Shown piece by piece: positions 27,803 to 50,809 of a DNA stretch of 53,532 bases; positions within the stretch are counted from its first letter, which is position 1, and each line of letters opens with the position of its first letter. Source of the DNA: Deltaproteobacteria bacterium (GTDB lineage Bacteria; Desulfobacterota; Dissulfuribacteria; Dissulfuribacterales; UBA3076); the NCBI GenBank assembly GCA_003194485.1, contig PQXD01000017.1, positions 1 to 53,532 of the forward strand, written 5' to 3'. Below the pieces are notes generated by a model. It was not told where the DNA came from, did no database searches, and saw only the letters and a program-made list of their open reading frames with translations. A program made the translations under genes and the position numbers.

Positions 27803-27851
27803 TATATGCTTTTTCCTCTTGTCAAAGCAGAAATAGGCTAACAGACCCAAA

Positions 27852-33421: not shown

Positions 33422-35569
33422 CTAAAACTTTACACCGACCTGGAATCCCCAGACATACTCCGGCATTTCATAACCCGCTATCTCTTCGTAATCCTCGCCT
33501 GTTACATTGTTGCAAAAGATACTGACCACGTATTCCATCTGATCAAACCTGAACTTCTGCTCAAATCCCACATCCACGGTTATGTAAGGACTCATCCCTT
33601 CACCCCTTTGAGACTTACGCGCATCAACGTATCGGGAACTCAACTGGAACCATCCATCCTCCCAGACCATATAGCGAGCAAGCAGCTTGACCTTATTTCT
33701 GGCCAGAAGGTCTGGAAGATAATACGTCCATCCGTGTTCGTAGCCAGTGTCATTTACGCTGTGTCTTTGATACACATAGGCCGCCGTGGCCCGGAAACGG
33801 TCACCCAGCTTGATTGTGGCTTCCAGTTCTCCACCGTAGAGTTTGACATGGTCAATATTGCAAAGGCAGTCAGTCCCTGCACCCGACCCTTCTGAAGGGG
33901 GAATGGTAATGCCGTTATCATTGATAAAATCATCAATGTCATAATACCAGCCAGCGGCCCTGACGGTCAGAAATTTGAAATCCTGTATGATCCCAAGCTC
34001 ATATTCCCATGCCGATTCAGGGTCCAATCTAGAATTCTCTCTGGACGCGCACCGCGCCCACCAGTAATAGTCTCAGGGACACGGGAGCCGGTAAGAGCGA
34101 CTCACTGCGGCATAGAGGGCCGTCTCCGGGGTGGCCTGGAAATCGACCTTCAGGCTTGGATAAAAGCCGTCGTCGTTATCCGTTTTGCCCGAATTATCAG
34201 CACTGAACGGCCATCCGGGAGGCTGGGAATCGTAGCCCATTTCCCACCAGCCGTAATAGACATCCATATCGACATCATAGTAACGAATGCCGGGGGTAAG
34301 GGTCCACCGGTCACCGAGGTGAATAACATCCTGGATATAGGCTGATTTGACATTGTAGATGATGGGGTCCTTGTCCGGCCAGCCCAGTTCCTGGTACTCG
34401 GTCCCTGCCGTCACGCTGTGGGAGTCGAACAGGTCGATGTCCCGGTACTCGCAGATTATCCCCTTTGTCCTGTCATCAACAAAGTCGTCTTTTTTAAATT
34501 TTTTCTCCGGGTCTTCCATTGAGGCGCCTTTGCCATAACTGCTGGTCCAGCGCCTGCCCTCGGTCCAAAACCCATGGACATTTACAATACCCGGCCCCAG
34601 GGGCATCTGAAAGATGACATCCAGATAGGAGGTATGTTTTTTCCACTCCGGACGCAGTGAACCTGTTGTGGGCAACTGAGGCCAGTTGAGGTGCCTCAGC
34701 TGGTCTGCAGACTTCTTAAATTTGGGATAGTCGTCATCATAGCGGGCAGCTACACCCGGATCAGGATCATTCGGATCATTGATAACCGGGAAGCCATAGT
34801 CGACATCGGAATACTTGGCACCTGCAGTGAAAGTGGCGTCATGAGGAAGAAAAAAGCTCAAATGCCCGTTAAGGTTATCCACTCTCTGAAAGTCGTTTCT
34901 GAGATAACCATCCGTGCCTCCTCTACTTGCTGAAAAATGGTAACCCACGATATTGCCGACACCCCCGTCAACAGAACCTGACACATTATAGGTATCATAC
35001 CTTCCATAGCCCCCCTTGAAACTCACATCAGGTTTGGGGTCATCCGTCTTTTTTCCCTTTTTCGTAATCATGTTGATCACGCCACCGATGGCAAAAGGAT
35101 GAAGCACCGAATGTCCGCCCCGGATGATTTCAATGCACTCGATATCATCCAGGTTCAACGTGGACCAGTCAACAATGTACCTGCCGTAATGGCCTGTATG
35201 GTTGATCCTGCGACCGTCGATCTCTATGACCATACGCCCTTCGTTGAGGCCACGGATGGATACCTCATCGCCCGGGCTGGCCATTAGCGGATTGCTGCGC
35301 TGCACGTCGATCCCGCCGATTTCGGTCAGCACGTCTGTCAGCGTCCTAACATCACCAGGCCTTTCGAATTTATCCAGGTTAATGATGGTCCTCTCGGTTG
35401 TTATCTCAACGCCCGGCTGCGGGGCCATCACTGTGATGGTCCCAATATCAATCGGCTTCGGTTCCTTTTCCCCAGCCAATCCAGGAATTGAGATCGCGAC
35501 CATGATAAAGGCAAGTCCGTTCACAAGAAAAACGTTCCAAAACTGTTTCCATTTTCCTTTCAACTTCAC
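33422..35569 (-). pseudogene. TonB-dependent receptor interrupted by one in-frame TGA
   Basis: A 716-codon frame starting at GTG 35569 (site GAGGAGAAAAGAAGA) with a signal peptide (LVNGLAFIMVAISIPGLAG). The plug domain is complete (TITVMAPQPG, then RTLTDVLTEIGGIDVQ and IECIEIIRGGHSVLHPFAIG), as is the barrel to the C-terminal aromatic signature (WGFQVGVKF). Codon 499 (34073-34075) is TGA, between RSYRLPCP and DYYWWARC; no frameshift is needed. It could be a recent Arg (CGA) to stop mutation, which would truncate the barrel, or a recoded selenocysteine; a hairpin follows 8 bases after the TGA. The receptor probably imports a metal chelate or corrinoid. The leader at 35536-35752 precedes it. 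Confidence 0.85.
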
Positions 35570-35752
35570 TCTTCTTTTCTCCTCTCCTATTTTAGATACA
35601 GTAATAGCCATACTGCACGACACCTGCCTTGAAGCGTCAAATCCGGATATCACCTGGTGTTGTGCAGTCTATTTTTTCGGGATATCTACGCTGAAGGCAA
35701 ATCTTGCTACGAATTTTAAAAAAGTACTACTATTGGCAGAAAATGTCAACCT
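35536..35752 (-). promoter_or_regulatory. Duplicated leader with promoter and B12-box-like hairpin, copy 2
   Basis: TTGACA at 35744-35749, a 17-base spacer and TACTTT, then the leader. The arms CTGCACAACACC and GGTGTCGTGCAG can pair; relative to copy 1 one pair changes from T-G to C-G, which preserves the stem. Between them is AGGTGATATCCGG, like the CGGTGAAAATCCGG core of cobalamin riboswitches, and AAGGCAGGTGTCGTGCA resembles the B12 box. The canonical CCCCGCAACTGT core is missing. It ends at the GTG of the receptor and the first ~12 codons are part of the repeat. Confidence 0.6.
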
Positions 35753-35802: not shown

Positions 35803-36489
35803 TCACGTAAGCTCAAACACTATGGTGAGCTCCAGGGGGATATCTCCCTTAAAAAGATGTGCAGGCGCTTTTGGAAATGGGGCAGCTTCCTTCACTGCCG
35901 TGAGCGCTGCTCCATCCAGGACCCTGTTACCTGACGTCTTTACGACCTCGGCCGACCTTATATCTCCTTCAGGCCGAATTATAAAGCGTACGGTCACACT
36001 CCCCTCTATTTGTCTGACCTTGGCACTTTCAGGATATCTCTTATATTTTTCTATTCTGAGCCGTACCATTTCCAGATAGCTGTCGGTTGTTGTGTAATCG
36101 CAGGCGGATTGATCCGGGATCCAGTCTGAGATGTCCGGGCCGGGAACATCCTGGATATCCGGCATGCTGATTCCCTCCACAAGGCCGTCCGGCAGGTCTT
36201 TCTCTACCGGCTCAAGTTTTATCGGTTTCAGGTGTGGGATAAGCTGGGTTACTCTCAGCTTTTTTATCTCCTGTGGCCGATCAGGGGGCTCGGGTCTGTG
36301 GCGCGGCCTGGGGATACTCCTTTTGGGAACTTTTGATATATTTTGAAGTGTCAACTCGATGTAAGTAAGGGTGTTTGAACTATAGAGTTTGGAAATATGC
36401 AAAAACAGGACAAGATGTATTAAAAGGGACACGCACAACAGACCGTGCAAGAGCCGGTTGGGACTTCTTTTTGTTGACCGGGATTTCAC
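35803..36489 (-). CDS. tonB: Energy transducer TonB
   Basis: 228 residues. A single N-terminal membrane segment (LLHGLLCVSLLIHLVLFLHI) is followed by a proline-rich, charged spacer (RPRHRPEPPDRPQEIKKLR ...) and a C-terminal TonB domain (YLEMVRLRIEKYKRYPESAK ... EGSVTVRFIIRPEGDIRSAEV ... GNRVLDGAALTAVKEAAPFP). It couples the ExbBD proton motor to the TonB-dependent receptors. Third gene of the exbB-exbD-tonB unit and directly upstream of the interrupted receptor. Confidence 0.94.
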   Translation of the reverse strand: MKSRSTKRSPNRLLHGLLCVSLLIHLVLFLHISKLYSSNTLTYIELTLQNISKVPKRSIPRPRHRPEPPDRPQEIKKLRVTQLIPHLKPIKLEPVEKDLPDGLVEGISMPDIQDVPGPDISDWIPDQSACDYTTTDSYLEMVRLRIEKYKRYPESAKVRQIEGSVTVRFIIRPEGDIRSAEVVKTSGNRVLDGAALTAVKEAAPFPKAPAHLFKGDIPLELTIVFELT

Positions 36490-36530: not shown

Positions 36531-36659
36531 TGTGATTCCGCTCAAAAAACCCGAGATGCAAGGCACGAGATTTCCGAGAAGTGAGGCGTACTTAGCGTAC
36601 GTCGCAATGACGAGGAAATTGAAGCAACGCCGCAGATTGGGTTTTTTCAGCGGAATCAA
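36531..36659. repeat. Full-length copy of the dispersed palindromic repeat
   Basis: Inverted ends TGATTCCGCTCAAAAAACCC and GGGTTTTTTCAGCGGAATCA bracket about 90 bases containing GCGTACTTAGCGTACGTC. Partial copies lie at 1671, 11515 and 16640. On the minus strand its end supplies the TGA stop of exbD. It sits between exbD and tonB of one operon, so it may affect the mRNA between them. Confidence 0.85.
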
Positions 36660-37063
36660 AATTCCTTTTCGGTCGCCAGACACAGCCGTCCAGCCCCTGC
36701 CGCCTTGGCCACATCCATGACCTTTACGGCCTTATTGAGGATTACGGCCCGGTCAGCCCTGACAACGACCAGTTTGTCTTCCTTGCCACCGATCATCTCC
36801 TTGAGCCCGTCAAAGAGCGCAGGCATGGAGACCTCCCTGGTTCCAAGAAATGCCCTTCCCTGCCGATCCACATAGACGGTAATCACCTCCTCGGTCTGCG
36901 GTGTCGAGGCCTTGGCCTGGGGGAGCTTGACCTTGATCCCCTCTTCAACCATAAAATTAGTAGTGAGGAGAAAATAGATCAAAAGGAGAAACACGATATC
37001 AATCAGAGAGGTCAGGGGAACCTGGACTCCCATACGGGCCCTTCTTTTGGGATGAACAATCAT
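36656..37063 (-). CDS. exbD: Biopolymer transport protein ExbD
   Basis: 135 residues. One N-terminal membrane segment with the functional Asp (QVPLTSLIDIVFLLLIYFLLTTNF), then a periplasmic domain (IKVKLPQAKASTPQTEE ... VYVDRQGRAFLGTREVSMPAL ... DKLVVVRADRAVILNKAVKVMDVAKAAGAGRL). Partner of ExbB in the proton-driven TonB motor. The stop codon is made by the repeat insertion at 36531-36659. Confidence 0.94.
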   Translation of the reverse strand: MIVHPKRRARMGVQVPLTSLIDIVFLLLIYFLLTTNFMVEEGIKVKLPQAKASTPQTEEVITVYVDRQGRAFLGTREVSMPALFDGLKEMIGGKEDKLVVVRADRAVILNKAVKVMDVAKAAGAGRLCLATEKEF

Positions 37064-37070
37064 GATCAGG

Positions 37071-37685
37071 TTACCTCCCGGTGGCCTTGATGGCTGTCTT
37101 GATAAAGGTCACCATCCCGTCCTGTAGCCGGGCCTCATACTTGTCCACGCGGGACACGAGATAGCTGTGGGCCACCATGGTGGGAAGCGCTACTGCAAGG
37201 CCCAGGGCCGTGGTCAGCATGGCCTCCCAGATGCCGCCCGCAAGTACAGCGGCATTGACCTTGCCTCCCATCTGCTGAATGACCATAAAGGCCTTGATCA
37301 TGCCGATAACAGTCCCCAGCAGACCGAGCAACGGAGCAATACTGCCAATGGTGGCAAGGACCTGGAGATAGCGGGAAAGCTCCCTGACTTCCTCCCCTGT
37401 GGAGTGGACAACCACTGTCTCAAAGGTCTCCCGGTCATGATCCATGACCTCCAAGGCACTTGCCAGGATACGCGCCATGGGGGATTCGCTCCTTCTTGCA
37501 AGATCAATGGCCCGGGCAGGCTCACCATCCCGCACATACCCGGCCACCTTTTTCACCAGTCCAAAATCCCGGATGCGTACCCTGGAAAAATGTATCAATC
37601 TCTCCAGGAAGATAGCCAGGGCAACCACGGAGCACAGAAGGATCGGTCCTACAAGAATGCCGCCTTTTGCAAGAAAATCGATCAT
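37071..37685 (-). CDS. exbB: MotA/TolQ/ExbB proton channel protein (ExbB)
   Basis: 204 residues with three membrane segments: IDFLAKGGILVGPILLCSVV, then SIAPLLGLLGTVIGMIKAFM and LTTALGLAVALPTMVAHSYL. The middle one is the ExbB/TolQ signature. It forms the pentameric proton channel with ExbD. It lies 7 bases before exbD and 2 bases after the EF-hand-like repeat gene, so all four genes are one operon. Confidence 0.94.
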   Translation of the reverse strand: MIDFLAKGGILVGPILLCSVVALAIFLERLIHFSRVRIRDFGLVKKVAGYVRDGEPARAIDLARRSESPMARILASALEVMDHDRETFETVVVHSTGEEVRELSRYLQVLATIGSIAPLLGLLGTVIGMIKAFMVIQQMGGKVNAAVLAGGIWEAMLTTALGLAVALPTMVAHSYLVSRVDKYEARLQDGMVTFIKTAIKATGR

Positions 37686-37687
37686 AC

Positions 37688-39232
37688 TTACACCCCCTTG
37701 CCTGTTTCATCTTCAATAATATCCGGTCTGCCATCAAAATTGAGATCTATCGAACGTCTCACCATTGCCTCCGACCCATCGTATTCCTCCCATTGATCAG
37801 GCTTTCCGTCTGCATTTGTGTCTACCTCAACAGCGGTCAGTCTTCCATTTTGATAGTGGTACCAGGTATCCACACGGCCATCTCCCGAATGATCCTCTTC
37901 GGCCCGGATTGCCTCTCCGTCCTGGTTGTAGAACCAGGTGATGTCCAGGCGATCAACGGCCTCATGCCTTTCCTGGCTCTTGACCAGCTTTCCTTCAGCA
38001 TCGAAATGTTCCCTCAGGTCCGGATTGCCGTCACCGTCCTCATCAATCTCCCTGAGCCTCAAGACGTTCTTTTTATAATAACAGCGACCCTCCGGATTCT
38101 TATCTCTATCGGCATCCACCTCCATCACCATGGACCATGGAGACCTGTCGAACCACTGGGTGATCTCAAAGCGGCCGTCATTGTCCTCGTCCCTGACAAG
38201 CCGGTATTTCTTTTCATTCCTGTAAAAGATCTTTGAGCTGATCTTCCCGTTACCTTCGTCGTCTTTTTCCACCCTTGCAAGCAGTCCATCCTTATAATAT
38301 TCCCATGTGTCGATCCTGCCGTTGAGATCCGTATCCATTTCGACCCGCTCCTTTTCTTCCCCGGCATTAAAATAAATCGTTACATCCGGCCTTCCGTCCC
38401 GATTAAGATCCTCTGTCTGGCGACAGGCCCTTCCCTCTTCAAACAGCGTAACGGTCTCCTTGAATCCGTCACCGTCAGCATCGTAGATTACCCTGACCGG
38501 CAGACCTGCATGAAAGGTACTGATCCTGTCAATCCGGCCGGTATGCCTGGTGTCTTCCTCCATGCTTTCAGCATGGCCGTCTGCATCAAAATGGATAAAA
38601 ACATCCTTTTCCCCATCAAGGTTTGAGTCTCTCTCCTGATAGTGGGGTCTGCCGTGCCTGAACACGGTCATGATGTCATAACGGCCGTCCCCATCACCAT
38701 CCACGCGTCTCTGTGACAGTTCATCATCCTTATAGGTCTGCCAGATATTGGGTTTGCCGTCGCCGTCCGTATCTTTTGCGGACGAGGAGAGCATCCCCTC
38801 CCTGAAATGATAAATGCTGTCAAACAGGCCGTCTCCTGTAGTATCTTTTTTTATCTTCAGGGGACGCTCCTGCGAATCAAATTGAATAACTTGAGTCACC
38901 TCGCCGGTGTCGTTTGACAACCTTTCATGCCTGGTCCTTTTCCCTGCCTCAAAATAGTCCCGGCAATCAATCCGCCGGTCATGATCCGTGTCCATTTCGA
39001 CCCTTATGATCTGCCCTTTTTCGTAATACTGGAATCGATCCATGAACTCATCGGCATTGCTGTCTATCTCAAGCCTGATGAGCCTGCCGCGCCTGTCAAA
39101 AAGGGCGATCCGGTCTATCTTTCCATCCTTGTTCATATCCAGTCTCACTATCTTTTCCCGTGCCCATGCCGGTTCAGGCTGCAGCAAAGCAACTACGGTC
39201 AGCATGATAAAAAACGAGAAAAGATGCCTCAT
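37688..39232 (-). CDS. Exported protein of ~18 EF-hand-like calcium-binding repeats
   Basis: 514 residues from the ATG at 39232. A signal peptide (SFFIMLTVVALLQPEPAWA) is followed by about 18 copies of a ~25-residue unit built around a Dx[DN]xDGxxD loop, for example DMNKDGKID, DTDGDGKPN, DLNRDGRPD, DTNADGKPD. Between the loops lies a short hydrophobic/aromatic strand (as in TWEYYKDGLLARVE). This is typical of periplasmic or surface calcium-binding modules. There is no membrane anchor. It is the first gene of the exbB-exbD-tonB operon and may be an accessory envelope protein for the receptor or a calcium-stiffened spacer; inference. Confidence 0.82.
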   Translation of the reverse strand: MRHLFSFFIMLTVVALLQPEPAWAREKIVRLDMNKDGKIDRIALFDRRGRLIRLEIDSNADEFMDRFQYYEKGQIIRVEMDTDHDRRIDCRDYFEAGKRTRHERLSNDTGEVTQVIQFDSQERPLKIKKDTTGDGLFDSIYHFREGMLSSSAKDTDGDGKPNIWQTYKDDELSQRRVDGDGDGRYDIMTVFRHGRPHYQERDSNLDGEKDVFIHFDADGHAESMEEDTRHTGRIDRISTFHAGLPVRVIYDADGDGFKETVTLFEEGRACRQTEDLNRDGRPDVTIYFNAGEEKERVEMDTDLNGRIDTWEYYKDGLLARVEKDDEGNGKISSKIFYRNEKKYRLVRDEDNDGRFEITQWFDRSPWSMVMEVDADRDKNPEGRCYYKKNVLRLREIDEDGDGNPDLREHFDAEGKLVKSQERHEAVDRLDITWFYNQDGEAIRAEEDHSGDGRVDTWYHYQNGRLTAVEVDTNADGKPDQWEEYDGSEAMVRRSIDLNFDGRPDIIEDETGKGV

Positions 39233-39326
39233 AACAATGCCTCGGCAACAGGAACAAAAATAATTCAATCCCTTCTCCATAAGGAATATTAAATGAAAGA
39301 GGAACTTTAATAACACATATCATATA

Positions 39327-39427: not shown

Positions 39428-40279
39428 TCAGCAAAACTTTATAAGATCCAGCGAACGTCTTAACCTGTCGAGAAATAGCTCTCGAGTCTTTTCATAAAAA
39501 CCGAGCCCTTTATAAAATCGTTCTTCTTGATACTCAACGGTCAGGCATTCCACGGAAAAACCGATTTCTTCCAGACGGCTTTTGTAGCTGTCTTGTTTCC
39601 CCAAAAGGTCCTGCTCTACATGGAGCCCGGCAACATACATGAACGGTATGATGCGGGCTCTCAACCCGGTTTTACCCGGATGAGAAGAAGAGAGAATTCG
39701 TTCAATTTTACCAAATACACCTTTGCTGCCAGGAATCCCTTCGATTGAACAGAAATAGACATTGCTGAATCTCCAGGACAGGAGGTGGTCGAGCCCTAAG
39801 TAAACAATATTTGCTGAGTCGTCAGAGAGTGGTGTGCCGTGTGCAACGAGCAGGTTGATTCCTTCTTCAGGAGAAATAAAATCCTTTGAAATGATATCCA
39901 ATACCTCTTCAACAAAATGCCACCGGTGCAACAGGATCTCCCCCACAAGCACTCTGAGACCTGGAAACGATCGGCATGAATCCGCAAGGACCTCATATTC
40001 CGTTCCCGGAAAGATCAGAAGCGGCTGGACAGCGGCCCTGGTAAAGCCTTGTTGTTCAAGGGATGCCAGGGTTTGCAGGATCCCCGGATGTCCTGTCTTT
40101 TCCCTGATGATCTCGGATGTATAGGCCCATGAAATATCGTAATCTTTGAACTCACTGCGCACTAAATTGTCGAATAGCTGGTAAACAGCCTTGCCCCTTT
40201 GGGCCGTGCCGAAGGCAGTAAGAACAATGGCAGGATGTTCTTTAAGGTTGCCTCGCCGTCTGTACTTTTTAAAGTGCAT
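39428..40279 (-). CDS. cbiK: Sirohydrochlorin cobaltochelatase CbiK
   Basis: 283 residues of the class II chelatase family (CbiK/HemH/SirB). It inserts cobalt into sirohydrochlorin in the anaerobic B12 pathway. The opening AIVLTAFGTAQRGKAVYQLF, INLLVAHGTPLSDDSANI with a metal-ligand His, and MYVAGLHVEQDLLGK with the second His are present. No signal peptide is seen, unlike the periplasmic CbiK known from Desulfovibrio, so a cytoplasmic location is likelier. It is 48 bases behind the CobN-like gene on the same strand. A truncated copy of its last ~48 codons lies at 50574-50717. Confidence 0.92.
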   Translation of the reverse strand: MHFKKYRRRGNLKEHPAIVLTAFGTAQRGKAVYQLFDNLVRSEFKDYDISWAYTSEIIREKTGHPGILQTLASLEQQGFTRAAVQPLLIFPGTEYEVLADSCRSFPGLRVLVGEILLHRWHFVEEVLDIISKDFISPEEGINLLVAHGTPLSDDSANIVYLGLDHLLSWRFSNVYFCSIEGIPGSKGVFGKIERILSSSHPGKTGLRARIIPFMYVAGLHVEQDLLGKQDSYKSRLEEIGFSVECLTVEYQEERFYKGLGFYEKTRELFLDRLRRSLDLIKFC

Positions 40280-40327: not shown

Positions 40328-43300
40328 CTACCTGTATTTTTTCACACCAAAGACCACCAGCCCCAGGATCAGAATAACAAACAGGGACGCAAGCCATTGT
40401 GCGCCGGAAGACGGCAGGTCAGTGGTGTCATCTTTTGCCTTGACCTCCTCCATCTTATATCCTTCCACTCTTTCTGACTCCGTCCCTGCTTTTGAGGTGT
40501 TTTTCTGATATTCTTCACCGGCCTTGAGGGTCTTTTGATCTGATGACTGTAGTCTTTTGGTGAACCCTTCATTCAGTTTTTTCTGCAATCTCTTTCGTGC
40601 CCTGACCTGCTCGGCCAGTTGCTTGCCCACGGCCTGCTCGATGGCCAGCTTGAACCTCTCGACCATTTCAGGCGACATGACTCCCGGCAGGGAAATAATG
40701 TTTACCACCATCTGGTTGAGTACCGGATTATTGCAGGTATGATCACAGCATGCCACACCCTTCTCGATGACATTAAGGGCGTATTCTGCTGCAAGCCTTT
40801 TCTTGATCTTTTCACCGGCATTCCAGTAGCCCTTTCGGATCGATTCCAGCATGCGGGCGGTAATGGACTGATAGGCCCAGGGGTTTTCCCTGTTGAAGAA
40901 ATCCTTCATTTCGAGACCGTATTTATCTTCTACATACACATCAAAGGTCTGCTCCCATTTGGTCTTGTCGATGGCGGAGGGCACGGTCACCTGCCAGCCC
41001 CACATGTATTCCACAAAGTTCGACATCTCCCGGGCACCGGCATATTTTTCTTCCTTCATCCCCTCAATCCATTTGGGATTGAGATAACGCGTTCGAAGCT
41101 CGCGGCCGATGGTCCTGGCTACATCTTCCACCTCTACACGGTCCGAAATCCTCTGCATGGTAATCAGGGTATCGGGGACCTGCCCACTCTCTTTTTTGAC
41201 AGCCAGAGAAAGCCCTCCCAGATACTGAAACATGTCGTCATTATCCATTGCTCCATAGATGTTGGAGGATATGGAATGGACAGCCACGTCCACTCCTTTA
41301 AGGTTTTGCCTGAATATCTCCCTTGCCTCTTCTCCCCATTTTCCCTGTCCAAAGGCATAGCCAACCCGGTTTTCATATACCTTCACGATCTCATCATCCG
41401 ATTCCCAGAAACCGGAATTTCCTGTCATCTCGCAGACCCCTGTTCCATACGATCCGGGTTTCTCCGTAAATATCCTGATCCTGGAAAGGGTGTCCGCCCT
41501 TTCTTCATCCGAGCCGGATGCTATCAGCCGTGTCTTGATCTCTGCATTATGTCTGCTGATCAGGTTTTCTATATCTGTCTGGATGGCTGCCTTCCGGACC
41601 GCCTTGTCAAGAAGGAGCAGCATATTGGGGAAAAGGTCCCGGTAAAGGCCCGACGGATTTATCAGGATATCGATCCGGGGCCGATCCAGCTTTCTGCCCG
41701 GGATCACCTCTGTGCCCGTGACCCGGCCGGCCTTGTCCCAGGTAGGCTTCAGGCCCATCAGATAGAGTATTGTGCTTTCGTTGATCCCCTCGTTCCGGAT
41801 CGTCTCGGTGGCCCAAAGAACAACAGCCACCTTTTCAGGATATCGCCTCTTTTCCCTCAGGCTCTTTCTGATGATCTTCCCGGCTGCGTATTTGCCGAGT
41901 TCCCAGGCCGCTTGAGAGGGGATCCTGTCCGGGTTGAAGCCAAAGAAGTTTTTTCCAGTTGGTATTGCGTCCATGTTTCTTATCGGGTCATTCCCTTCCC
42001 CTGATAGCACGTAGCCGCCTTTCAGGGCCTTGGTGAGATAATCGATCTCCCTCGGTCCGGAATCGACAAGGCCTGTTTTTACTTTTTCTTCATTCGCCTG
42101 GCTGTTGCGCTTTGAAATGGCCTTGACCATATCCTGTAAGGCCTCACCTCCAGGCGATATGCCGAATGTATGCATACCATAGGGCATGAGGTTTTCCCTG
42201 ATCTCAAGCAGGTAATGCTCGATCTCTTCGAGCACACTATCGTCAAACTCCGTGATGCCAAGATCATTGAGGAGCCCCATGTCTGTGACAAGATCTTCTA
42301 TTTTTCCAAGCTTTCCCCCGGCTGTCCGGCTTCCAAGAGAAACAGCCCTGTTGTAGCTGTTTATCATGTCATATAATTGGCTGTATTCATGATAGAGCCC
42401 TGCCTCCCTGACCGCCGGGATCAAATGGTCAATGATGACCCCCCTGCCCCTGCGCTTGGCCTGGATCCCTTCTCCCACGTCATCCACGATGTAGGGATAG
42501 ATGTTGGGAATGTCTGTGATCAAGACTTCCGGTGGGCAGGAGGGCGAAAGCCCTGCCTGTTTCCCGGGAAGCCATTCATGGGTGGCATGTGTCCCCAGAT
42601 GGATCATGGCATCGGCATGAAAGACGTGTTTGAGCCACAAATAGGCGGCGATGTACTGGTGGTGTGGATAAAGCGTGGGATCATGATAGAGCTTGACAGG
42701 ATCATCTCCCCAGCCGCGGACAGGCTCCGGCATGATAAGGACATTTCCAAGAATAACTGCCGGAATGATGAATTCGCCGTTCTTGATCATGATGGTTGAG
42801 CCTTCTGCCTCTCCCCATTGTTTAATGACATTTTTCCTGAAATCTCCGGGGAGCCCGGAAAACCACTTCTGATAGGTCTTTACCGGGAGCCGGATGGCCT
42901 TTTTCCCCTCAAGCATCTTATCCAGTTCCCCCGGGGCCCAGCTGCCTATATTCCTGCCGTACTTCAGTACCAGATCCTTGATAGCGTCTTCGCTCAGATC
43001 CTTGTCCATGGCGACCCGATACCCCCCTTTTTTCATGCGCTGGAGGATAAGCTCAAGACTTCTGAATACATTAAGATAGCTGGCGCCCACATTCTGCTTC
43101 CCCTGGCCGTGATTATAATAAAGGATGGCCACCCTCTTGTTCTTATTCTCTTTTTTCTTCAATTGAACCCACATCTTCAGCCTGGGGATGAGCAGCTCAA
43201 TGTTTTCCTTGATAGGTCTGTGAACAAACAGGACCTTACCGGTCTCTTGGTCTAATTGCCTTACCTTGCCGGTAAGAGCAGAGGATTCGATCAGGCCTGA

Positions 43301-44266
43301 TATCTCCGGATTGGCAACAGTCCAGACCACGTCCATGGGCGGGATTCCTGTCGGATCACCACGCCATTCATCGATCGTATTTGAGTAAAGGTTAATCGCA
43401 TTAAAGACCGGGACGTTCAGATTGATTAGGGCGCGCCGGACATCGTCGTTTAAGGCCGAGTAGAATTTGAGGGAAAAAGCCAAGACCAGATCGACTCTTG
43501 CCTGTTGATTCTTATCCATAAACAGCGACGTCAAAATGTCAAAATCGCGGCCAAAGGCAGGAACCACGTTGAATCCTTCATCCTCAAGCGTCTTTATCAG
43601 GTAATCGACCTTCTCCTTCTGCCCCTCTACGAGGGAAGATGAAAAAAGCATCATGCCTATCCATGGGGCGTCTTTGATGTACTCTTTTCGATTTCCATAC
43701 CAATGAAGATATTCTTCAAGGCTTGTGAAAACCGCATCCGCACCGGCATGGTATATCCCAAGGCGCGGCAGCTTCCTGGCTTCCTCATAAGCGATGGATG
43801 AATCAAGCTCTTTATGTGCCACCCGGCAGATGAGGTTTTGGATATTAGCTACGCAGAGGTTACTGAAATACTCCTGAATATCAGGGTCAAAAATAATGCC
43901 TTGTCTCTTAAGGGCCTCATCATTCCTGGAACCTCTCACGGCATATATGTCCTTGCTCCTGATATTGACATCTTCTATCAAATACCTGCCCAGTTCACCC
44001 TGCATCACATCACAGATAATGACCTCGGAAGCATCAATAAACTCCCTTGCAGAACTATCGCTCGTGATATCATGATAAGTGAAGAATCTGACTTTGATAT
44101 TGTCGGGGAGCCGAAGCCCTTTGATTGCCTTGTTGACAAGGCAGGTGTCCGCATCAATCACCAAAAAAGATATCTGTTTTGCCAAAGTTGTCGATGGGAA
44201 CAAAAAGAGTATCGCAAGCGGTAAGAGAATATAGAATTTGTTTATGTCGTTCACTTGATCCTGCAA
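40328..44266 (-). CDS. Exported, membrane-anchored CobN-like chelatase (HmuS-like)
   Basis: 1312 residues, the large-subunit chelatase family (CobN/ChlH/BchH). Normal CobN is cytosolic and uses ATP with CobS and CobT to put cobalt in hydrogenobyrinate. This protein instead has a signal peptide (FYILLPLAILFLFPSTTLA at 11-29) and a C-terminal membrane anchor (LFVILILGLVVFGVKKYR), so the catalytic body lies outside the cytoplasm. Family motifs are clear: LYHDPTLYPHHQYIAAYLWL, MIHLGTHATHEWLPGKQAGL, GVCEMTGNSGFWESDDEIVK, NFVEYMWGWQVT and CCDHTCNNP at 1173-1181. No CobS/CobT or ChlI/ChlD gene is present. This arrangement with DUF2149 and an ExbB-type channel resembles the HmuS-type systems reported for anaerobic heme use in Bacteroidota, where such a protein removes metal from heme. 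Here the ligand may be a corrinoid. Confidence 0.9.
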   Translation of the reverse strand: MQDQVNDINKFYILLPLAILFLFPSTTLAKQISFLVIDADTCLVNKAIKGLRLPDNIKVRFFTYHDITSDSSAREFIDASEVIICDVMQGELGRYLIEDVNIRSKDIYAVRGSRNDEALKRQGIIFDPDIQEYFSNLCVANIQNLICRVAHKELDSSIAYEEARKLPRLGIYHAGADAVFTSLEEYLHWYGNRKEYIKDAPWIGMMLFSSSLVEGQKEKVDYLIKTLEDEGFNVVPAFGRDFDILTSLFMDKNQQARVDLVLAFSLKFYSALNDDVRRALINLNVPVFNAINLYSNTIDEWRGDPTGIPPMDVVWTVANPEISGLIESSALTGKVRQLDQETGKVLFVHRPIKENIELLIPRLKMWVQLKKKENKNKRVAILYYNHGQGKQNVGASYLNVFRSLELILQRMKKGGYRVAMDKDLSEDAIKDLVLKYGRNIGSWAPGELDKMLEGKKAIRLPVKTYQKWFSGLPGDFRKNVIKQWGEAEGSTIMIKNGEFIIPAVILGNVLIMPEPVRGWGDDPVKLYHDPTLYPHHQYIAAYLWLKHVFHADAMIHLGTHATHEWLPGKQAGLSPSCPPEVLITDIPNIYPYIVDDVGEGIQAKRRGRGVIIDHLIPAVREAGLYHEYSQLYDMINSYNRAVSLGSRTAGGKLGKIEDLVTDMGLLNDLGITEFDDSVLEEIEHYLLEIRENLMPYGMHTFGISPGGEALQDMVKAISKRNSQANEEKVKTGLVDSGPREIDYLTKALKGGYVLSGEGNDPIRNMDAIPTGKNFFGFNPDRIPSQAAWELGKYAAGKIIRKSLREKRRYPEKVAVVLWATETIRNEGINESTILYLMGLKPTWDKAGRVTGTEVIPGRKLDRPRIDILINPSGLYRDLFPNMLLLLDKAVRKAAIQTDIENLISRHNAEIKTRLIASGSDEERADTLSRIRIFTEKPGSYGTGVCEMTGNSGFWESDDEIVKVYENRVGYAFGQGKWGEEAREIFRQNLKGVDVAVHSISSNIYGAMDNDDMFQYLGGLSLAVKKESGQVPDTLITMQRISDRVEVEDVARTIGRELRTRYLNPKWIEGMKEEKYAGAREMSNFVEYMWGWQVTVPSAIDKTKWEQTFDVYVEDKYGLEMKDFFNRENPWAYQSITARMLESIRKGYWNAGEKIKKRLAAEYALNVIEKGVACCDHTCNNPVLNQMVVNIISLPGVMSPEMVERFKLAIEQAVGKQLAEQVRARKRLQKKLNEGFTKRLQSSDQKTLKAGEEYQKNTSKAGTESERVEGYKMEEVKAKDDTTDLPSSGAQWLASLFVILILGLVVFGVKKYR

Positions 44267-46269
44267 TAAATCCCGTTGAGCAGAGCGTTTACGGTCATAC
44301 GCAATACAAGCGGCATATCTTCAGTTTCTGTGACCTCCTTCATGTTTGCGATCTCTTTTCCTGCAATTTCCCCGGCCACCTTCTTGCACGAGAGTTCATG
44401 GCTGCTCAAATCGGCAATCAGCCCCCTTTCATAGTCGTCACTTATTGCGAAAGACGATTCCACAAATGAGGCATAACGGGGTTGGAGCAATACATCTTCC
44501 AATGCCCACAGCAGTCTTTTCCTGTCACTGTCGTCCTCCACCCTCATCGAGGTAATTAAATCAAAAAGGCTGATCTTTCGATCCCCCAGTCTCTGGAAGA
44601 TATTGCGCCGGGCGACGATACCGTTTTGCCTGTATACCGCCTCTTGAACAGCCCCATATACAGCCTTGGCAATCAGTTCGCCCATCTTTGAATGGCCGCC
44701 GGAATTGTCAACTGGTATCCCATTTCCACCCACAACTATGATGTTATCGGTTCCGGTTCCAGTAGCCTGGTGAATCCGTGGGGTGTAACTGCTTCGGATA
44801 TCAAGATCCTGTAATGCTGCGGTTTTTGCCTCCGTGGCACTTATGATGGCCCTGGTCATGGCACGCGGCGAGAGTTTCATGTTGGGCAAAATGATGATAT
44901 TGATTGTTCCGGGTTTATAGAATCTCCCTTCATCTCTAGACATCCTGACCGCATTTGACTTCACGCCGGCTGTTACAAGGGCATAGACTTCCATATCCCT
45001 GAACCTTTCCTTCTTAATGACCAGATTGTCCATGTCCGCGCCGGTGAAAAGAAAACTGGCCGTATCCTCTGATTTGCCAATAGCCTGATATACTCGCTTC
45101 CTTATTTCCTCCAAACCGAGTTTATGGCCGATCCCCCAACAAGGAGGGGAAGAATAATGGTTGCCTATCGATTCTATTCCTCTGCGCTCTCCTTCAAGGG
45201 TTGAGACCAGAGATAATGGTTCTTTAAAATCGATGATCAGGGTCTTGTTCAAAAAATCATGGATAGTACTGTACGAAATGCGGGCATCTTTTATGTAATC
45301 AAGATCGAGATCGAGCTTGCGTGATTTGAATATTTGGTCTTTGAGAACCTGCTCTTCTTTTTTGGAAAACTCATCTTCGTAAATTTTGGCAGAGAGCCAG
45401 GAAACGAAATAACCGGCACGTATCGAGGCACGGCACGTAAGGTCACACGGAAAGAAAAATATCTTATCATTTCTTACCGCTTCGACATCCTTCCATCCTG
45501 GACGGTCAAAGAGCTTTTCAGCCGTTTCTCTATCCCCGTCGCATCCGTAAATAACTTGAGGGTTGAAGCGCATCCACTCTTCTTTGGTAACGGCTGCAAT
45601 ATTCCCATCTTTACCGAGCCTTGGGGGAATACCACCGGCGAGCCTGATATATTCGTTCTGAAAGGAATCATCCCCTGGAGTCATCACCTGATCACGGCCC
45701 ATGAGCCGTATAACCCTTTTCCTTTCGGATTGAGGTATCCCGGCCACCTTCCTGTCAATAATTCGGAGTTCATTCTTTATCCTGTCGATGATCCTTGCAG
45801 AATCCTTCTCCCTGTTGAAAATCCTGCCCAACAAATTGATGTTTCTGTAGATATCTGAAATGGAATTCGCTTCAAGGTTAATCAACCTGAATCTTCCGTG
45901 GCCGAATTTTTCTCTTATTCCTTTGTGAAGCCTGGACACAAAAATAACATCAGGCTCTATCTTCTCTATAGCCCTTAAGGAAGGCGAGAAAAAGCCACCG
46001 ACTATCTCCTTTGTCGCCGCTTCTGAAGGATACGTATCGTGGCAGGTAACGGCCCTGACCGCATCGCCCGCCCCGAGCTTAAATATAATTTCGGTAATGG
46101 CTGGCACCAGGGAGACGACCCTCGAGGGCCTCTTTTCGATGGTGATTTTATTCCCATCAGAATCCGTAAATGTTACCGGATAGGAAAAAGTCGTGGCAGG
46201 ACTCCAGAAGATGGCGAATAGAATTAAGAACAATAAGGCAAAAAATCGGGAAAAGATGATTCTTTTCAT
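44251..46269 (-). CDS. Exported fusion of BtuF-like binding protein and CbiZ amidohydrolase
   Basis: 672 residues. A signal peptide (FFALLFLILFAIFWSPATTF) is followed by a BtuF/FepB-like periplasmic binding domain (PSRVVSLVPAITEIIFKLGA to about residue 300). Residues ~345-560 are a CbiZ adenosylcobinamide amidohydrolase domain: VTAGVKSNAVRMS at 432-444, GTINIIILPNMKLSPRAM at 454-471, ATEAKTAALQDLDIRS and HQATGTGTDNIIVVGG at 500-515. The last ~110 residues have no recognised family. CbiZ cleaves the aminopropanol side chain from adenosylcobinamide to give cobyric acid, normally in the cytosol. Its export and fusion suggest the periplasm captures and remodels corrinoids. The start of cobN overlaps the stop by 16 bases. 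Confidence 0.9.
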   Translation of the reverse strand: MKRIIFSRFFALLFLILFAIFWSPATTFSYPVTFTDSDGNKITIEKRPSRVVSLVPAITEIIFKLGAGDAVRAVTCHDTYPSEAATKEIVGGFFSPSLRAIEKIEPDVIFVSRLHKGIREKFGHGRFRLINLEANSISDIYRNINLLGRIFNREKDSARIIDRIKNELRIIDRKVAGIPQSERKRVIRLMGRDQVMTPGDDSFQNEYIRLAGGIPPRLGKDGNIAAVTKEEWMRFNPQVIYGCDGDRETAEKLFDRPGWKDVEAVRNDKIFFFPCDLTCRASIRAGYFVSWLSAKIYEDEFSKKEEQVLKDQIFKSRKLDLDLDYIKDARISYSTIHDFLNKTLIIDFKEPLSLVSTLEGERRGIESIGNHYSSPPCWGIGHKLGLEEIRKRVYQAIGKSEDTASFLFTGADMDNLVIKKERFRDMEVYALVTAGVKSNAVRMSRDEGRFYKPGTINIIILPNMKLSPRAMTRAIISATEAKTAALQDLDIRSSYTPRIHQATGTGTDNIIVVGGNGIPVDNSGGHSKMGELIAKAVYGAVQEAVYRQNGIVARRNIFQRLGDRKISLFDLITSMRVEDDSDRKRLLWALEDVLLQPRYASFVESSFAISDDYERGLIADLSSHELSCKKVAGEIAGKEIANMKEVTETEDMPLVLRMTVNALLNGIYCRIK

Positions 46270-46302: not shown

Positions 46303-46641
46303 TTACTCCGGCACATAGACCATGGTCCCGTCTTCCAGCCTGTAGGCAATCCCCAGTCTCTCGCCCCTGCCTCTGACCCTCTCTTTCGTGACCTTGAGCC
46401 TCTTTATCTTTTTCCCCTTCTTGGTGATAATCTCCATCTGTCCATTCTCGGCTTTCTTCACAATTGTGATTTCAGATTTTTCACTGAAGAGGTCCTGGAG
46501 GTAATGGGCAGCAAAGAGAGCAACAATCAGTCCCACGATAAAGACAAGCCCGATGTCAAAGAGGTTGGCCACCCCTGCCATGGGATCGTTCTCACCTATA
46601 TCACCTGAAGGGTCTCCTCTCCTCTTCTTGAAGTATCTCAT
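46303..46641 (-). CDS. DUF2149 membrane protein (ExbD-like position)
   Basis: 112 residues. The DUF2149 signature GENDPMAGVANLFDIGLVFI with its membrane segment (GLVFIVGLIVALFAAHYL) lies at residues 16-45; the remainder is a basic periplasmic domain (TKKGKKIKRLKVTKERVRGR). It occupies the place where ExbD would be after an ExbB-like gene, but the sequence is unrelated apart from the single segment with an Asp (NLFDIGLVF). In Bacteroidota and methanogens DUF2149 genes co-occur with CobN-like and ExbB-like genes. It overlaps the channel gene by four bases. Confidence 0.88.
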   Translation of the reverse strand: MRYFKKRRGDPSGDIGENDPMAGVANLFDIGLVFIVGLIVALFAAHYLQDLFSEKSEITIVKKAENGQMEIITKKGKKIKRLKVTKERVRGRGERLGIAYRLEDGTMVYVPE

Positions 46642-47255
46642 CTGTGCCTTTCCTCTGAGATCTCGCTGGCCAGTATCTCGGTTGCCAGCTCAATATTTTT
46701 TATATCTTCCTCCACCCACCTTCTCTTTATCGTGTAAAAAAAATAGGCCACAATCCCCACGGCAAGACCAACCACGGTGGTGGTAAAAGCGATTACCAGG
46801 TCCGAAGACAATTTGGTCATGTCACCCTGCCCAAGGGCCGCAAGGCCTGTTCCCATGGGGATGAGGGTGCCTATTAACCCCAGGCTGGGACCGATCCGGA
46901 TAATCATCTTGATACGGTCAAGGGATTCCCAGGTTTTTAGACTCGTTTCCTGAAGGATATTTTCTATCTCCACTTCGTCCGGTGGAGATACTTTGTTCAG
47001 CAAAAGCCGCAGGTCTTCCAAATAGGAATTGACCCGGTGCGGAAAGAAATTCTGATCGTTTCCCTCTCTTATCAGCCGGGGGAGTCTTTCAGGAGAGTAT
47101 TTGACTATCCTGAGCCGTTCCAGCCATTCAGCAAAAAAAGACCCTGAAGAGATCACTATGTACACAACTAAGGCGACCAGCAAGAACAGCACCGGGTAGA
47201 GAAGAGAGGAGGCAATAAGATAGATAAGAGATTTCAACAACGCGCCTATGTCCAA
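46638..47255 (-). CDS. MotA/TolQ/ExbB-family channel paired with DUF2149
   Basis: About 205 residues from a TTG at 47255 with a good AAGGAGGAG site; an ATG at 47291 without one would add 12 residues and overlap the previous gene more. Three membrane segments: IYLIASSLLYPVLFLLVALV, then IRIGPSLGLIGTLIPMGTGL and IAFTTTVVGLAVGIVAYFFY, the latter two with the ExbB/MotA signature. It is a second, distinct proton-channel subunit in this island, different from the ExbB at 37071. It probably forms a motor with the DUF2149 protein to energise the receptor or the CobN-like protein. Confidence 0.9.
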   Translation of the reverse strand: MDIGALLKSLIYLIASSLLYPVLFLLVALVVYIVISSGSFFAEWLERLRIVKYSPERLPRLIREGNDQNFFPHRVNSYLEDLRLLLNKVSPPDEVEIENILQETSLKTWESLDRIKMIIRIGPSLGLIGTLIPMGTGLAALGQGDMTKLSSDLVIAFTTTVVGLAVGIVAYFFYTIKRRWVEEDIKNIELATEILASEISEERHR

Positions 47256-48001
47256 CCCCGTCTCCTCCTTATCTTTCTTCTCATGGCCCAAAAGCCGGTT
47301 GAAAAAAGAGTGGCCATTACTGAATAGAGCAACAGAATGTCCCTGATGTCAGTAGACTCTGCTTCACCATGGTAGGCAGCCAGTCTGTAAATCTTGCTCA
47401 GATCACTGAACTGGGGCATGATGATTATGGACAGGAAGAAGTAGACGGCAATGATCAACATAGCCGCCCCCAGATTTGATTCAGATGCAAGATTCGACCT
47501 GATACTCCATAATGTCATGCTGATTGACGTCGTAATGACAATAGCCATAAATAGAATATAGGCCCCCAACGCGGCCGGATAACCGGAATCAGGGAAGCAG
47601 GAAAGGAGAAAGGCCGCGCTGAAAAAGATGGCCGTGACACAGACAGGGCAGGGGATGGTTAGGGCCAGCCAGGCAAAACTCCTGTTCCCGGGCCCGCTTT
47701 CTCTTTTCAGCAGAACAACTCCCCAGATGATAAGCCCGCCCGCCATCAGGACGTGGATGAATATTCCTGATTTCAAAAGGCCTTGTACTATTTCGAAGTA
47801 ATGGATGATATTGATCCTTTGCAGGATGTAAGAGGAAAGCACAAAGATAATGAGATAAACAAGGCAGTACAGAGAAAGGAAGATGAGCTTTGACATCAGC
47901 TTTCTTCTCTGGATCAGGAAATAGTGCAGACCTATCCCACTCTTTATGGCAAATACGCCTATAGTAAAGACAAGGCCGAGAAACAGGCTTTTGAGCTCCA
48001 T
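47246..48001 (-). CDS. DUF2162 membrane protein, putative transporter
   Basis: 251 residues with about seven membrane segments (LFLGLVFTIGVFAIKSGIGL, then VHVLMAGGLIIWGVVLL-like and others). A Cys motif, ALTIPCPVCVTAIFFSAAFL, lies in the middle and may bind metal or heme. DUF2162 proteins are predicted transporters found mostly in anaerobes and archaea next to CobN/ExbB/DUF2149 genes; no function is established. Twelve bases after the receptor stop and overlapping the channel gene, so clearly cotranscribed. Confidence 0.86.
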   Translation of the reverse strand: MELKSLFLGLVFTIGVFAIKSGIGLHYFLIQRRKLMSKLIFLSLYCLVYLIIFVLSSYILQRINIIHYFEIVQGLLKSGIFIHVLMAGGLIIWGVVLLKRESGPGNRSFAWLALTIPCPVCVTAIFFSAAFLLSCFPDSGYPAALGAYILFMAIVITTSISMTLWSIRSNLASESNLGAAMLIIAVYFFLSIIIMPQFSDLSKIYRLAAYHGEAESTDIRDILLLYSVMATLFSTGFWAMRRKIRRRRGWT

Positions 48002-48013
48002 AACAATAATTGT

Positions 48014-50005
48014 CTAGTAATTATATCTGAGGCCAAGGAAAAAACTTCTTCCAGGCATAGGGTACCCTTGCACATATTCGTATTCCTTATCCAGGAGGTT
48101 TTGAATCGCACCTCTTAGAGTCAACCCACCGTAGTTTCCAAAATCGAGAATCCTTTTGCTGATCGTAAGATCAGCAACCGTAAAACCGCCTTTCTCTATT
48201 ACTCCATAGGACCCGCCTTCATAATCAGTGATCTTTTGTTCTCCGGTATAGGTAAAGTTTAGATTGGCAGAAAGACCATCAAAATCGGAGAATGTAATAC
48301 CATAAGACAGATTAATATCAGAGGTATACTTGAGGTCTTTGTGTGTTTCCTCATCTTCGTATTTGGTGAGATATACAAGGTTGGCGTAAGGTTTGAACTC
48401 AAATTCCCAGCCCAAAAGGGCACCCACGTCACAGAAGATGTCTGCTTCCACACCCTCTATTTCAGCTTCTCCAACGTTTTCCCACGTGGTGTCACCACCC
48501 GATGTGGAAACAGTCTGGATCTTATCCTCAAAATCAGTATAAAAATAGGTGAGGGAAGAATTGAAAGAGGCATAAGAGAAGTCCAGCCCCCCTTCGTAGG
48601 TTTCGCTTTTCTCAGGGTCCAAATCGGGGTTACCCACGAAATTGCCGGACCAGCCTGGAAAATTTCCTGCCAACTGCTTGGCGGAAGGCATCTTGAACGC
48701 CTCTCCATAGTTGGCCCTGAGTTTTAGAAAGTCTGTAAGAAGATAGGCCACGCCGGCTCGAGGAGAAACGTGATCATCGTCCTCATGCCCCCCTTGGCCT
48801 TTTTTCACTTCCACATCATATTCGTCATATCTCAAGCCACCGGCAAGTATCAATCTATTGTCCAAAAGCCTGGCTTTGGCCAGGAGAAAACCGGCGGGAT
48901 TATCATATTCAGACTTCTTTGGGTCCCAGGTGGTTTTCACTTCATAATTCACCCAGTCAAAACCCGCGGTAACAAGTATATTTTCCAGGTTTAAAGACAC
49001 CTGTGCCTGTGCCCCTTCCTGGTCGGTTTTCTGCTCGGATGGAACGCCATCGTCCCAGCCGTCCGGGTTGCTCCCGGTCGGATCAGACCATCTGTCCTCA
49101 TCCTCACCGCGAAAATATCTTGCCATCCAGGAGAATAGACCATCTGTAGTTCCGCCGTCATAAATAAAGTCAATGGACTTATTGCTTGTATCTTTATAGT
49201 CATCAAGATCGTTCTGGCTGAGATAACCCGGATTGCCCACCTGATCTCCATCAAAATAATTACAGATGACACCGATACGATTTCCGGGCAAAAACTCAAA
49301 ACCAAGATTCAGGCTGCAGTCTTCTTTTTCATCATATCCGGTATTATGATATCTTTTCCCATCCGCAGTATCATAGTCGTCCATCGATCCTGTGGTGTAA
49401 CTGCCGGAAAAATCGAATCCCTTTACCTGTCCCGAAAATCCGACACTCCCTTCCTCATGTTCGAAACTCCCCAAATAACCCTCAACAAACGCAGTTGGTT
49501 TATCCTTTCCCTGTCTGGTAATCACGTTTACGACTCCGCCCATTGCGGCCGAGCCGTATTGAACAGAGGCAGGACCCCTTACTATTTCCATCCTCTCTAT
49601 GTTTTTGGTCGTGATCTTGGCCGCATTACCGGTACCGGCCCTCCTTCCATTCAGAAGAATCAGGACATAGCCCTCAAGATCATTACCGTGAGATTCGGTC
49701 CTGAAGCCCCGGATACCGATAGGAGTCAAAGTGCCCGGATATTTTTGAATATGCCCAATATTTTTTTCGGCCAACAAATCCCCGAGATCCCTGGCTGAAG
49801 ACCTTTTGATTTCTTCTTCATCGATAACAGTCAAATTGGAGGTGATCTCCCTTTTCTTTTCCTTTACCCTGCTTGCGGTTACCACCACCTCTTCCAATTC
49901 ATGTATCTCTTCTTTTCTATTTTGGGCCAATGACCTGTTTGCCGATGACAGGACCAATAGTGCACCGCAGAAATATATAATCATAATCAGAATAATTCGT
50001 TTCAT
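48014..50005 (-). CDS. Riboswitch-controlled TonB-dependent receptor (BtuB-like)
   Basis: 663 residues from the ATG at 50005 with an AAAGGG site. A signal peptide (IILIMIIYFCGALLVLSSA) is followed by the TonB box (IHELEEVVVTASR), the plug (DLGDLLAEKNIGHIQKYPGT ... IERMEIVRGPASVQYGSAAM) and a barrel ending in YPMPGRSFFLGLRYNY. Two cobalamin riboswitches lie upstream, so the expected ligand is a corrinoid, as for BtuB. It is the first gene of the DUF2162/channel/DUF2149/CbiZ/CobN/CbiK operon. The in-frame start at 50233 is rejected because it would translate the riboswitch. Confidence 0.92.
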   Translation of the reverse strand: MKRIILIMIIYFCGALLVLSSANRSLAQNRKEEIHELEEVVVTASRVKEKKREITSNLTVIDEEEIKRSSARDLGDLLAEKNIGHIQKYPGTLTPIGIRGFRTESHGNDLEGYVLILLNGRRAGTGNAAKITTKNIERMEIVRGPASVQYGSAAMGGVVNVITRQGKDKPTAFVEGYLGSFEHEEGSVGFSGQVKGFDFSGSYTTGSMDDYDTADGKRYHNTGYDEKEDCSLNLGFEFLPGNRIGVICNYFDGDQVGNPGYLSQNDLDDYKDTSNKSIDFIYDGGTTDGLFSWMARYFRGEDEDRWSDPTGSNPDGWDDGVPSEQKTDQEGAQAQVSLNLENILVTAGFDWVNYEVKTTWDPKKSEYDNPAGFLLAKARLLDNRLILAGGLRYDEYDVEVKKGQGGHEDDDHVSPRAGVAYLLTDFLKLRANYGEAFKMPSAKQLAGNFPGWSGNFVGNPDLDPEKSETYEGGLDFSYASFNSSLTYFYTDFEDKIQTVSTSGGDTTWENVGEAEIEGVEADIFCDVGALLGWEFEFKPYANLVYLTKYEDEETHKDLKYTSDINLSYGITFSDFDGLSANLNFTYTGEQKITDYEGGSYGVIEKGGFTVADLTISKRILDFGNYGGLTLRGAIQNLLDKEYEYVQGYPMPGRSFFLGLRYNY

Positions 50006-50049
50006 AAAAAAATCCCTTTCCCCCTCGAGAAATGTTGTTAAAGATTCTG

Positions 50050-50200
50050 GTTTCGTCCAGGTCTCCTGGCTTACGTTCATCCTACTTGCCGTGCCTTCCC
50101 ATGCCGCTTCCGGCGGCACAGTGGCATGCTTGCGGCTTTCGTCCCGATCACAGTCGCGGGGCGGCGAGAGGTTTGCACTCCCTTCCCTTAGAACGAAACC
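50050..50200 (-). promoter_or_regulatory. Cobalamin riboswitch, proximal
   Basis: The minus strand shows the B12 box AAGCCAGGAGACCTGG (50053-50072), the upstream GGGAAGG(C) and ACTGT-type core and the P1 pairing GTTTCGT / ACGAAAC at the two ends. It lies about 45 bases before the receptor start, so it probably controls translation by covering the ribosome site; no terminator lies between. Confidence 0.93.
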
Positions 50201-50247
50201 GGCTAAATCATTCAGAATACTACCGGCCTTCACCTCCTTTCTTCGCT

Positions 50248-50289: not shown

Positions 50290-50349
50290 CCCTTTTTTAT
50301 CCGCAAGATCTTTCGGCACACTCCCGTCCACGAAGTATTGTGCCGGTTG

Positions 50350-50510
50350 TTATTCTGGCAGGTCTTCTGGCTCCCGGTTTATCCTACTTGCCGCGCCTTC
50401 CCAACCTTCTTTGAGGTCAGTGACATTTTGCAGCGTTCGTCCCGGTCACAGCGGCGGGCCCGCTCCCGACTTTCACGGGATTCCCTATTAAGCCCATAAG
50501 GGCACCATGA
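50350..50510 (-). promoter_or_regulatory. Cobalamin riboswitch, distal
   Basis: The B12 box GAGCCAGAAGACCTGCC lies near 50356-50372 on the minus strand, with TTGGGAAGGCGCGGCAAGT and CGCCGCTGTGACCGGGACG matching the conserved core. It is followed by the terminator at 50248-50289, so transcriptional control is likely. Confidence 0.92.
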
Positions 50511-50513
50511 TTA

Positions 50514-50543
50514 TTATTACAAGAATCAACTTTGTGATGTCAA
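50514..50543 (-). promoter_or_regulatory. Predicted promoter of the riboswitch/receptor operon
   Basis: TTGACA at 50538-50543, an 18-base spacer and TAATAA at 50514-50519, immediately upstream of the distal riboswitch. Confidence 0.6.
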
Positions 50544-50717: not shown

Positions 50718-50809
50718 ATGGGTCTTATTAACAGTGTCGGTCTCAGGGATCAGGGGATAGAGGGAAGCAATATCCTGCATTTCTTACGATGGGTCTGATC
50801 AACTAAAGG

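Follow-up and report, generated by a model that had tools for sequence, protein, structure and literature searches.

An exported, membrane-anchored CobN-like protein in an operon preceded by cobalamin riboswitches: a candidate ATP-free cobalt-tetrapyrrole de-chelatase

Results

The stretch analysed here (the window) is the 53,532-nucleotide contig PQXD01000017.1 of a Deltaproteobacteria bacterium (assembly GCA_003194485.1), and our subject is a CobN-like gene on its minus strand, in an operon preceded by two cobalamin riboswitches. The open reading frame, at 40328-44266 (1312 residues), matches the Pfam model CobN-Mg_chel (PF02514) with 1074 bits in a profile search. Its start was moved from the earlier TTG at 44266 to a GTG at 44254, four codons downstream (gene, 40328-44254; product, 1308 residues). 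This GTG overlaps the stop codon of the upstream gene, which ends at 44251, as GTGA and has AGGA ahead of it (AGGATCAAGTGAAC), and is therefore probably the true start. A full-length CobN-Mg_chel domain and a six-domain fold identify the product as a class I chelatase large subunit (CobN/ChlH/HmuS superfamily). Within this superfamily, work published in 2025 showed that the periplasmic, membrane-anchored HmuS of B. thetaiotaomicron (PDB 9D26) removes the iron of reduced heme with neither oxygen nor ATP, in an NADH-dependent reaction that is abolished by H538A (PMC12583661).

The original prediction described a CobN-like protein with a signal peptide and a C-terminal anchor, and both features were borne out. 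The N-terminus, MQDQVNDINKFYILLPLAILFLFPSTTLA followed by KQ, has the hydropathy of a Sec-type signal peptide (44180-44254, minus strand), with predicted cleavage between TLA and KQ. The C-terminus, SSGAQWLASLFVILILGLVVFGVKKYR, has that of a single hydrophobic anchor with the positive tail KKYR (transmembrane segment at 40343-40396, minus strand), and the succession of SSG-x-W, transmembrane segment and basic tail is conserved in relatives. These relatives come from one scan of 84,980 species that gave 79 loci, which are the best 79 of 328 candidate stretches and are not evenly sampled. Among 56 relatives in the membrane clade, a hydrophobic stretch was found at the N-terminus in 46 and at the C-terminus in 49, several of the misses being cut contigs, as against 0 of 23 cytosolic proteins at either end.

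The genes around the CobN-like gene are all on the minus strand. The operon begins with a distal (50340-50524; RF00174, 119.1 bits) and a proximal (50039-50211; RF00174, 86.5 bits) cobalamin riboswitch, followed by a TonB-dependent receptor (48014-50005; Pfam Plug and barrel) that was annotated from its signal peptide, the listed reading frame starting at 50233. Models of B12 and hemin receptors give this receptor similar scores. Next come a DUF2162 membrane protein (47246-48001; PF09930), a MotA/ExbB-like proton-channel protein (46638-47291; PF01618) and a DUF2149 membrane protein (46303-46641; PF09919), which correspond to HmuT (by operon position), HmuU and HmuV of the hmu operon, where a hypothetical, an ExbB and a DUF2149 protein likewise accompany a TonB receptor (PMC10434189). 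An intramembrane PCPxC motif of DUF2162 is invariant in 33 of 33 loci and raises the idea of a CcdA/DsbD-type electron conduit; it stays an idea only, because the AlphaFold2 model of DUF2162 (predicted local distance difference test score, pLDDT, 87) has no significant fold match in the PDB.

Immediately upstream of the CobN-like gene lies a gene for an exported BtuF-like binding protein fused to a CbiZ amidohydrolase (44251-46269; PF01497 and PF01955). Its signal peptide is also present in relatives, and its CbiZ domain is the only CbiZ in the organism's genome. BtuCD was not found in the operon in profile searches of the window and locus proteins. Immediately downstream is a CbiK-type cobalt chelatase (39428-40279; PF06180, 113 bits) in which the HGT and AGxH active-site histidine motifs are both present; this copy has no signal peptide, and a periplasmic chelatase role for it was rejected. 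Elsewhere in the genome (contig C5), an exported CbiK-type chelatase (L099:2245-3219) directly follows a cobalamin riboswitch and is succeeded by BtuCDF-like and CbiL-like genes.

The module of TonB receptor, DUF2162, ExbB, DUF2149, (BtuF-CbiZ) and CobN recurs in Desulfobacterota, Synergistota and other groups. A sense-strand cobalamin riboswitch was found at 19 further loci of the window's clade, so that 20 of 35 clade loci, the window included, are riboswitch-led, and also at a Brocadia locus (L041). If only clade loci with enough upstream sequence on their contig are counted, about 20 of 21 carry one by hand tally. The exception is a Poribacteria locus (L021), where the module lies inside a cbi operon, with CbiM-Q-O-D-T-L upstream and CbiF downstream; in Brocadia, CbiM-Q-O lie upstream. 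No riboswitch was seen near the archaeal loci or near paralogues of the L006/L063 type. At an ANME-1 (anaerobic methanotrophic archaea, group 1) locus, L044, DUF2162-ExbB-DUF2149-CobN is followed by CbiM, CbiQ, CbiO, CbiT, CbiL, CbiF, CbiG, CbiH/C and CbiD, and the arrangements CobN-CbiM or CobN-CbiT-CbiL are repeated in further genomes of its class. Altogether, gene order ties the membrane-type CobN to cobalt and corrin synthesis in three phyla, and riboswitches do so in a further two.

In a Synergistaceae locus (L015), BtuF-CbiZ and CobN form one reading frame of 1982 residues, in which the CobN part begins at its mature N-terminus. Because the internal signal peptide is lost at the junction, this fusion is more than a mere sequencing error, and as a single polypeptide it means that CobN shares a compartment with BtuF-CbiZ and is its physical neighbour. 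The fusion to an exported protein and the hydropathy profile together support the earlier proposal that the body of the CobN-like protein is periplasmic.

Phylogeny and structural modelling, both named in the original prediction as checks, relate the protein to HmuS. When the tree is given ChlH as its outgroup, one side holds every membrane-anchored form, HmuS among them, and the other holds the cytosolic CobN proteins, including those of M. tuberculosis and of the window's own genome. Support for this split in the Shimodaira-Hasegawa-like approximate likelihood ratio test (SH-aLRT) was 100 with 82 rows and 99 with 36 rows under a mixture model; HmuS is represented there by a single, long-branched row, for which the sequence was taken from HMMER alignments that cover residues 127-692 and 922-1387 only. 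Forcing the window clade together with cytosolic CobN was rejected by an approximately unbiased (AU) test (p=3.8e-5). The outcome named in the original prediction as refuting it, a grouping with cytosolic CobN plus a CobST pair in the same operon type, did not arise. For the AlphaFold2 model of the CobN-like protein (pLDDT 86), the closest Foldseek match is HmuS 9d26 (template modelling scores 0.89/0.84), followed by CobN 7c6o (0.75/0.76) and then ChlH.

In the alignment, His560 (42587-42589, minus strand) corresponds to the catalytic His538 of HmuS, Glu599 to HmuS Glu577 and His528 to HmuS His506. His560 is invariant across the superfamily, and His560 and Glu599 are invariant together in all relatives. 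In contrast, residues peculiar to HmuS are not kept in the part of its sequence that was compared, which begins at residue 127, beyond the heme ligand Met79. Tyr, Ser or other residues stand at the column of its heme ligand His254, and a 31-residue linker replaces its Met-rich insertion (domain IV). Its LSLDHxxEFMGG motif, which holds His1209 and Glu1212, reads MDNDDMFQYLGG in the window protein, with a CobN-type DNDD (Asp1010-Asp1011; 41234-41239, minus strand) where HmuS has Asp1208-His1209; the His1209 column is Asp in 35 of 39 aligned relatives and the Glu1212 column is mostly Gln. Near the C-terminus, the motif CC[DEH]HTC[NG]N, present here as CCDHTCNN (40727-40750, minus strand), marks the membrane clade; HmuS retains C-x4-C only, and cytosolic CobN has no counterpart. 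Since the corrin cobalt of BtuM is ligated by a cysteine (PMC6072759), a role for this motif in cobalt handling is possible.

As first noted, no CobS, CobT, ChlI or ChlD is encoded in the window. Three CobN genes, one cytosolic and two membrane-type including the window gene, are present in the window's own genome (2.55 Mb, 97% complete), where the AAA+ partners sit with the cytosolic one, away from the window gene: ChlI and ChlD (C16:16259-19281) lie beside that CobN and beside ATP-binding cassette (ABC) importer genes. The second membrane-type gene, on contig C11, lies beside DUF2162, ExbB and DUF2149, and may serve another metal, as no riboswitch is nearby. In this copy (L006:5180-5420) the signal peptide is in a reading frame other than that of the body, which reflects a frameshift or an assembly error. 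The proposed independence from AAA+ partners is supported by four further genomes, those of Desulfonema magnum (complete chromosome), Desulfamplus, NaphS2 and one ANME-1 archaeon, which have membrane-type CobN only and no match to TIGR02442 above 40 bits. Desulfospira is a mixed case, its CobN being solely membrane-type, yet with a split ChlI/ChlD pair present. A canonical CobN role was rejected on the export features, the phylogeny and the absence of AAA+ partners beside the gene.

Only seven cobalamin riboswitches occur in the 2.55 Mb, and one precedes a protein that by sequence resembles MetE, therefore indicating a B12 regulon. Genes of the CbiC, CbiB, CbiA, CbiL, CbiH and CbiF-CbiG types and one CbiM homologue were found. 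CbiD was not found in the genome by profile search, though most other corrin-synthesis genes are present; corrin synthesis is probably mostly in place, and the idea of a pure corrinoid salvager was rejected.

Discussion

Because the CobN-like protein shares kinship, partners and conserved catalytic residues with HmuS, it can most simply be read as performing the HmuS reaction on a cobalt-containing ring. We give an even chance to the proposal that it is a de-chelatase which removes cobalt from a tetrapyrrole outside the cytoplasm, without ATP, and so supplies B12 synthesis. A more specific version appears doubtful: a B12 demetallase that would remove cobalt from intact corrin in the periplasm, anaerobically and without ATP, and recycle the cobalt, perhaps also the metal-free corrin, into cobamide synthesis. 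To our knowledge, cobalt has never been removed from a corrin chemically without destruction of the ring. Non-corrin cobalt tetrapyrroles are possible substrates.

A pathway of this kind would start at low cellular cobamide, when the riboswitches would permit expression of the operon and the TonB receptor might import a corrinoid or another cobalt tetrapyrrole. Exported BtuF-CbiZ would bind the imported ring compound and cleave its nucleotide loop, and the ring could then pass to the CobN-like protein, a class I chelatase on the periplasmic side of the inner membrane, to which it would be anchored, that would run in reverse without ATP or AAA+ subunits. At the ring-binding cleft, His560/Glu599, His528 and Asp1010-Asp1011 may help to expel the cobalt, with DUF2162, the ExbB-like protein and DUF2149 as a putative inner-membrane partner complex. 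The freed cobalt would enter through a CbiM-type importer and be re-inserted by the cytosolic CbiK.

Several observations weigh against this proposal. The conserved active-site residues are common to metal-inserting CobN and say nothing of the direction of the reaction, and the second catalytic His of HmuS is replaced by Asp. Electron delivery by DUF2162, whose model lacks a PDB match, is speculative. If the ring is a corrin, de-chelation would be chemically unprecedented, and it would seem a waste for a cell short of B12 to destroy a corrinoid that it could use, unless the ring is reused. Cobalt also resists removal from intact corrins (PMC6771967), and for this reason some weight, short of making it likely, remains on an alternative in which the metal stays in place. 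There, the CobN fold would serve only to bind the corrin ring on the periplasmic side and present it to CbiZ for uptake and remodelling, and cobyric acid would pass to a proton-driven inner-membrane transporter formed by DUF2162, the ExbB-like protein and DUF2149. Such a role accords with the BtuF-CbiZ fusion protein and its natural joining to CobN in Synergistaceae, with the TonB receptor and riboswitch, and with an operon in which BtuCD was not found. It fits poorly with the ANME-1 operons, where CobN stands without BtuF-CbiZ and is paired with a cobalt importer and de novo synthesis genes, and with a catalytic His/Glu pair that is invariant in all relatives of a protein whose nearest characterised relative is an enzyme.

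Two further readings are much less probable. The original prediction had suggested an ATP-free de-chelatase like HmuS; the kinship stood, and de-chelation may hold, but heme is an unlikely substrate, and HmuS in the strict sense was rejected by the residue tests (His254, His1209, Glu1212, Met-rich insertion). Clade, fold and partner genes are indeed those of HmuS, and the receptor matches hemin as well as B12 models. However, cobalamin riboswitches, BtuF-CbiZ and CbiK in the operon, together with relatives whose neighbours are CbiMQO and other Cbi genes, point to cobalt or corrin, away from heme. Metal insertion in the periplasm is also highly improbable; here the proton gradient would drive the exported CobN to load cobalt into a ring that is metal-free or of the precorrin type, perhaps with the help of exported methylase and CbiK homologues. 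Both such homologues are encoded in the genome, and the active-site DNDD resembles that of cobalt-inserting CobN; yet outside the cytoplasm neither ATP nor an AAA+ partner is available, the genome has a complete CobN-ChlI-ChlD set in the cytosol, and the nearest relative is a de-chelatase.

Membrane CobN-like proteins (BtuS/HmuS) are already known. BtuS1 and BtuS2 of B. fragilis are likewise exported, membrane-anchored and CobN-like, and were put forward as a third type of CobN that would salvage metalloporphyrins; they were examined for heme iron, and PMC6460266, which credits the BtuS family to Rodionov et al. 2003, reports neither a B12 riboswitch nor a CbiZ fusion. BtuS2 is HmuS (PMC13227078). 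The window protein differs from HmuS in lacking the Met-rich insertion and His254 and in having Asp for His1209, and its operon has a cobalamin riboswitch, BtuF-CbiZ and CbiK where HmuS is under iron control. It shares the six-domain fold and DNDD-type motif of cobaltochelatase CobN (7C6O, 9UK9; with CobST or ChlID), which in contrast is cytosolic, depends on AAA+ subunits and ATP, belongs to a separate clade and has neither the CCxHTCxN tail nor anchors. CbiZ cobinamide amidohydrolase and BtuF are known as the domains of the partner protein, which here is exported and fused and in Synergistaceae is also joined to CobN. In the literature searched, with subscription papers mostly outside it, we found no riboswitch-led module, exported BtuF-CbiZ, fusion of the latter to CobN or CobN-CbiMQO operon, and priority is uncertain.

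Most archaeal members of the membrane CobN-like proteins have no assigned function (PMC12583661). A large part of the membrane and archaeal sequences left without a function would gain a specific role in the metabolism of cobalt and B12 that can be put to the test. In sulfate reducers and Synergistota the setting is a periplasmic module led by a riboswitch, and in the methane-oxidising ANME-1 it is an operon for cobalt import and corrin synthesis. These are corrinoid-dependent anaerobes, and cobalt may limit their growth. If the proposal is true, it describes a new route by which anaerobes obtain cobalt or B12, and if cobalt does leave a corrin, the view that it is irreversibly trapped in B12 would be overturned.

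Other features of the window

Downstream of CbiK, still on the minus strand, lie an exported DxDxDG-repeat protein (37688-39316), found otherwise only in the nearest relative (L007), an ExbB/TolQ-type protein (37071-37685; NCBIfam), an ExbD/TolR-type protein (36656-37063; NCBIfam), TonB (35803-36489; PF03544) and a second TonB-dependent receptor (33422-35653). This receptor is interrupted by a single in-frame stop (RLPCP, stop, DYY), and is either a pseudogene or the product of a sequence error. Further members of the operon are possibly a tetrapyrrole-methylase-family protein with a signal peptide (32499-33410, minus strand; PF00590, 117.8 bits), which also occurs in L007, and an exported DUF4198 protein (31630-32394, minus strand; PF10670). 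An S-adenosylmethionine-dependent fold in the periplasm is unexpected; the methylase-family protein, of the corrin/porphyrin methylase family, perhaps binds a ring.

A remnant of a duplication, the C-terminal part of a second CbiK (50574-50783, minus strand), lies a short way upstream of the riboswitches. A match to the model of a NikL-type Ni/Co energy-coupling factor (ECF) transporter subunit, below the cut-off, lies at 27347-27862 (minus strand), and group II intron domains (RF02001, RF01998, RF01999) occupy 52327-53532 (plus strand), at the end of the window.

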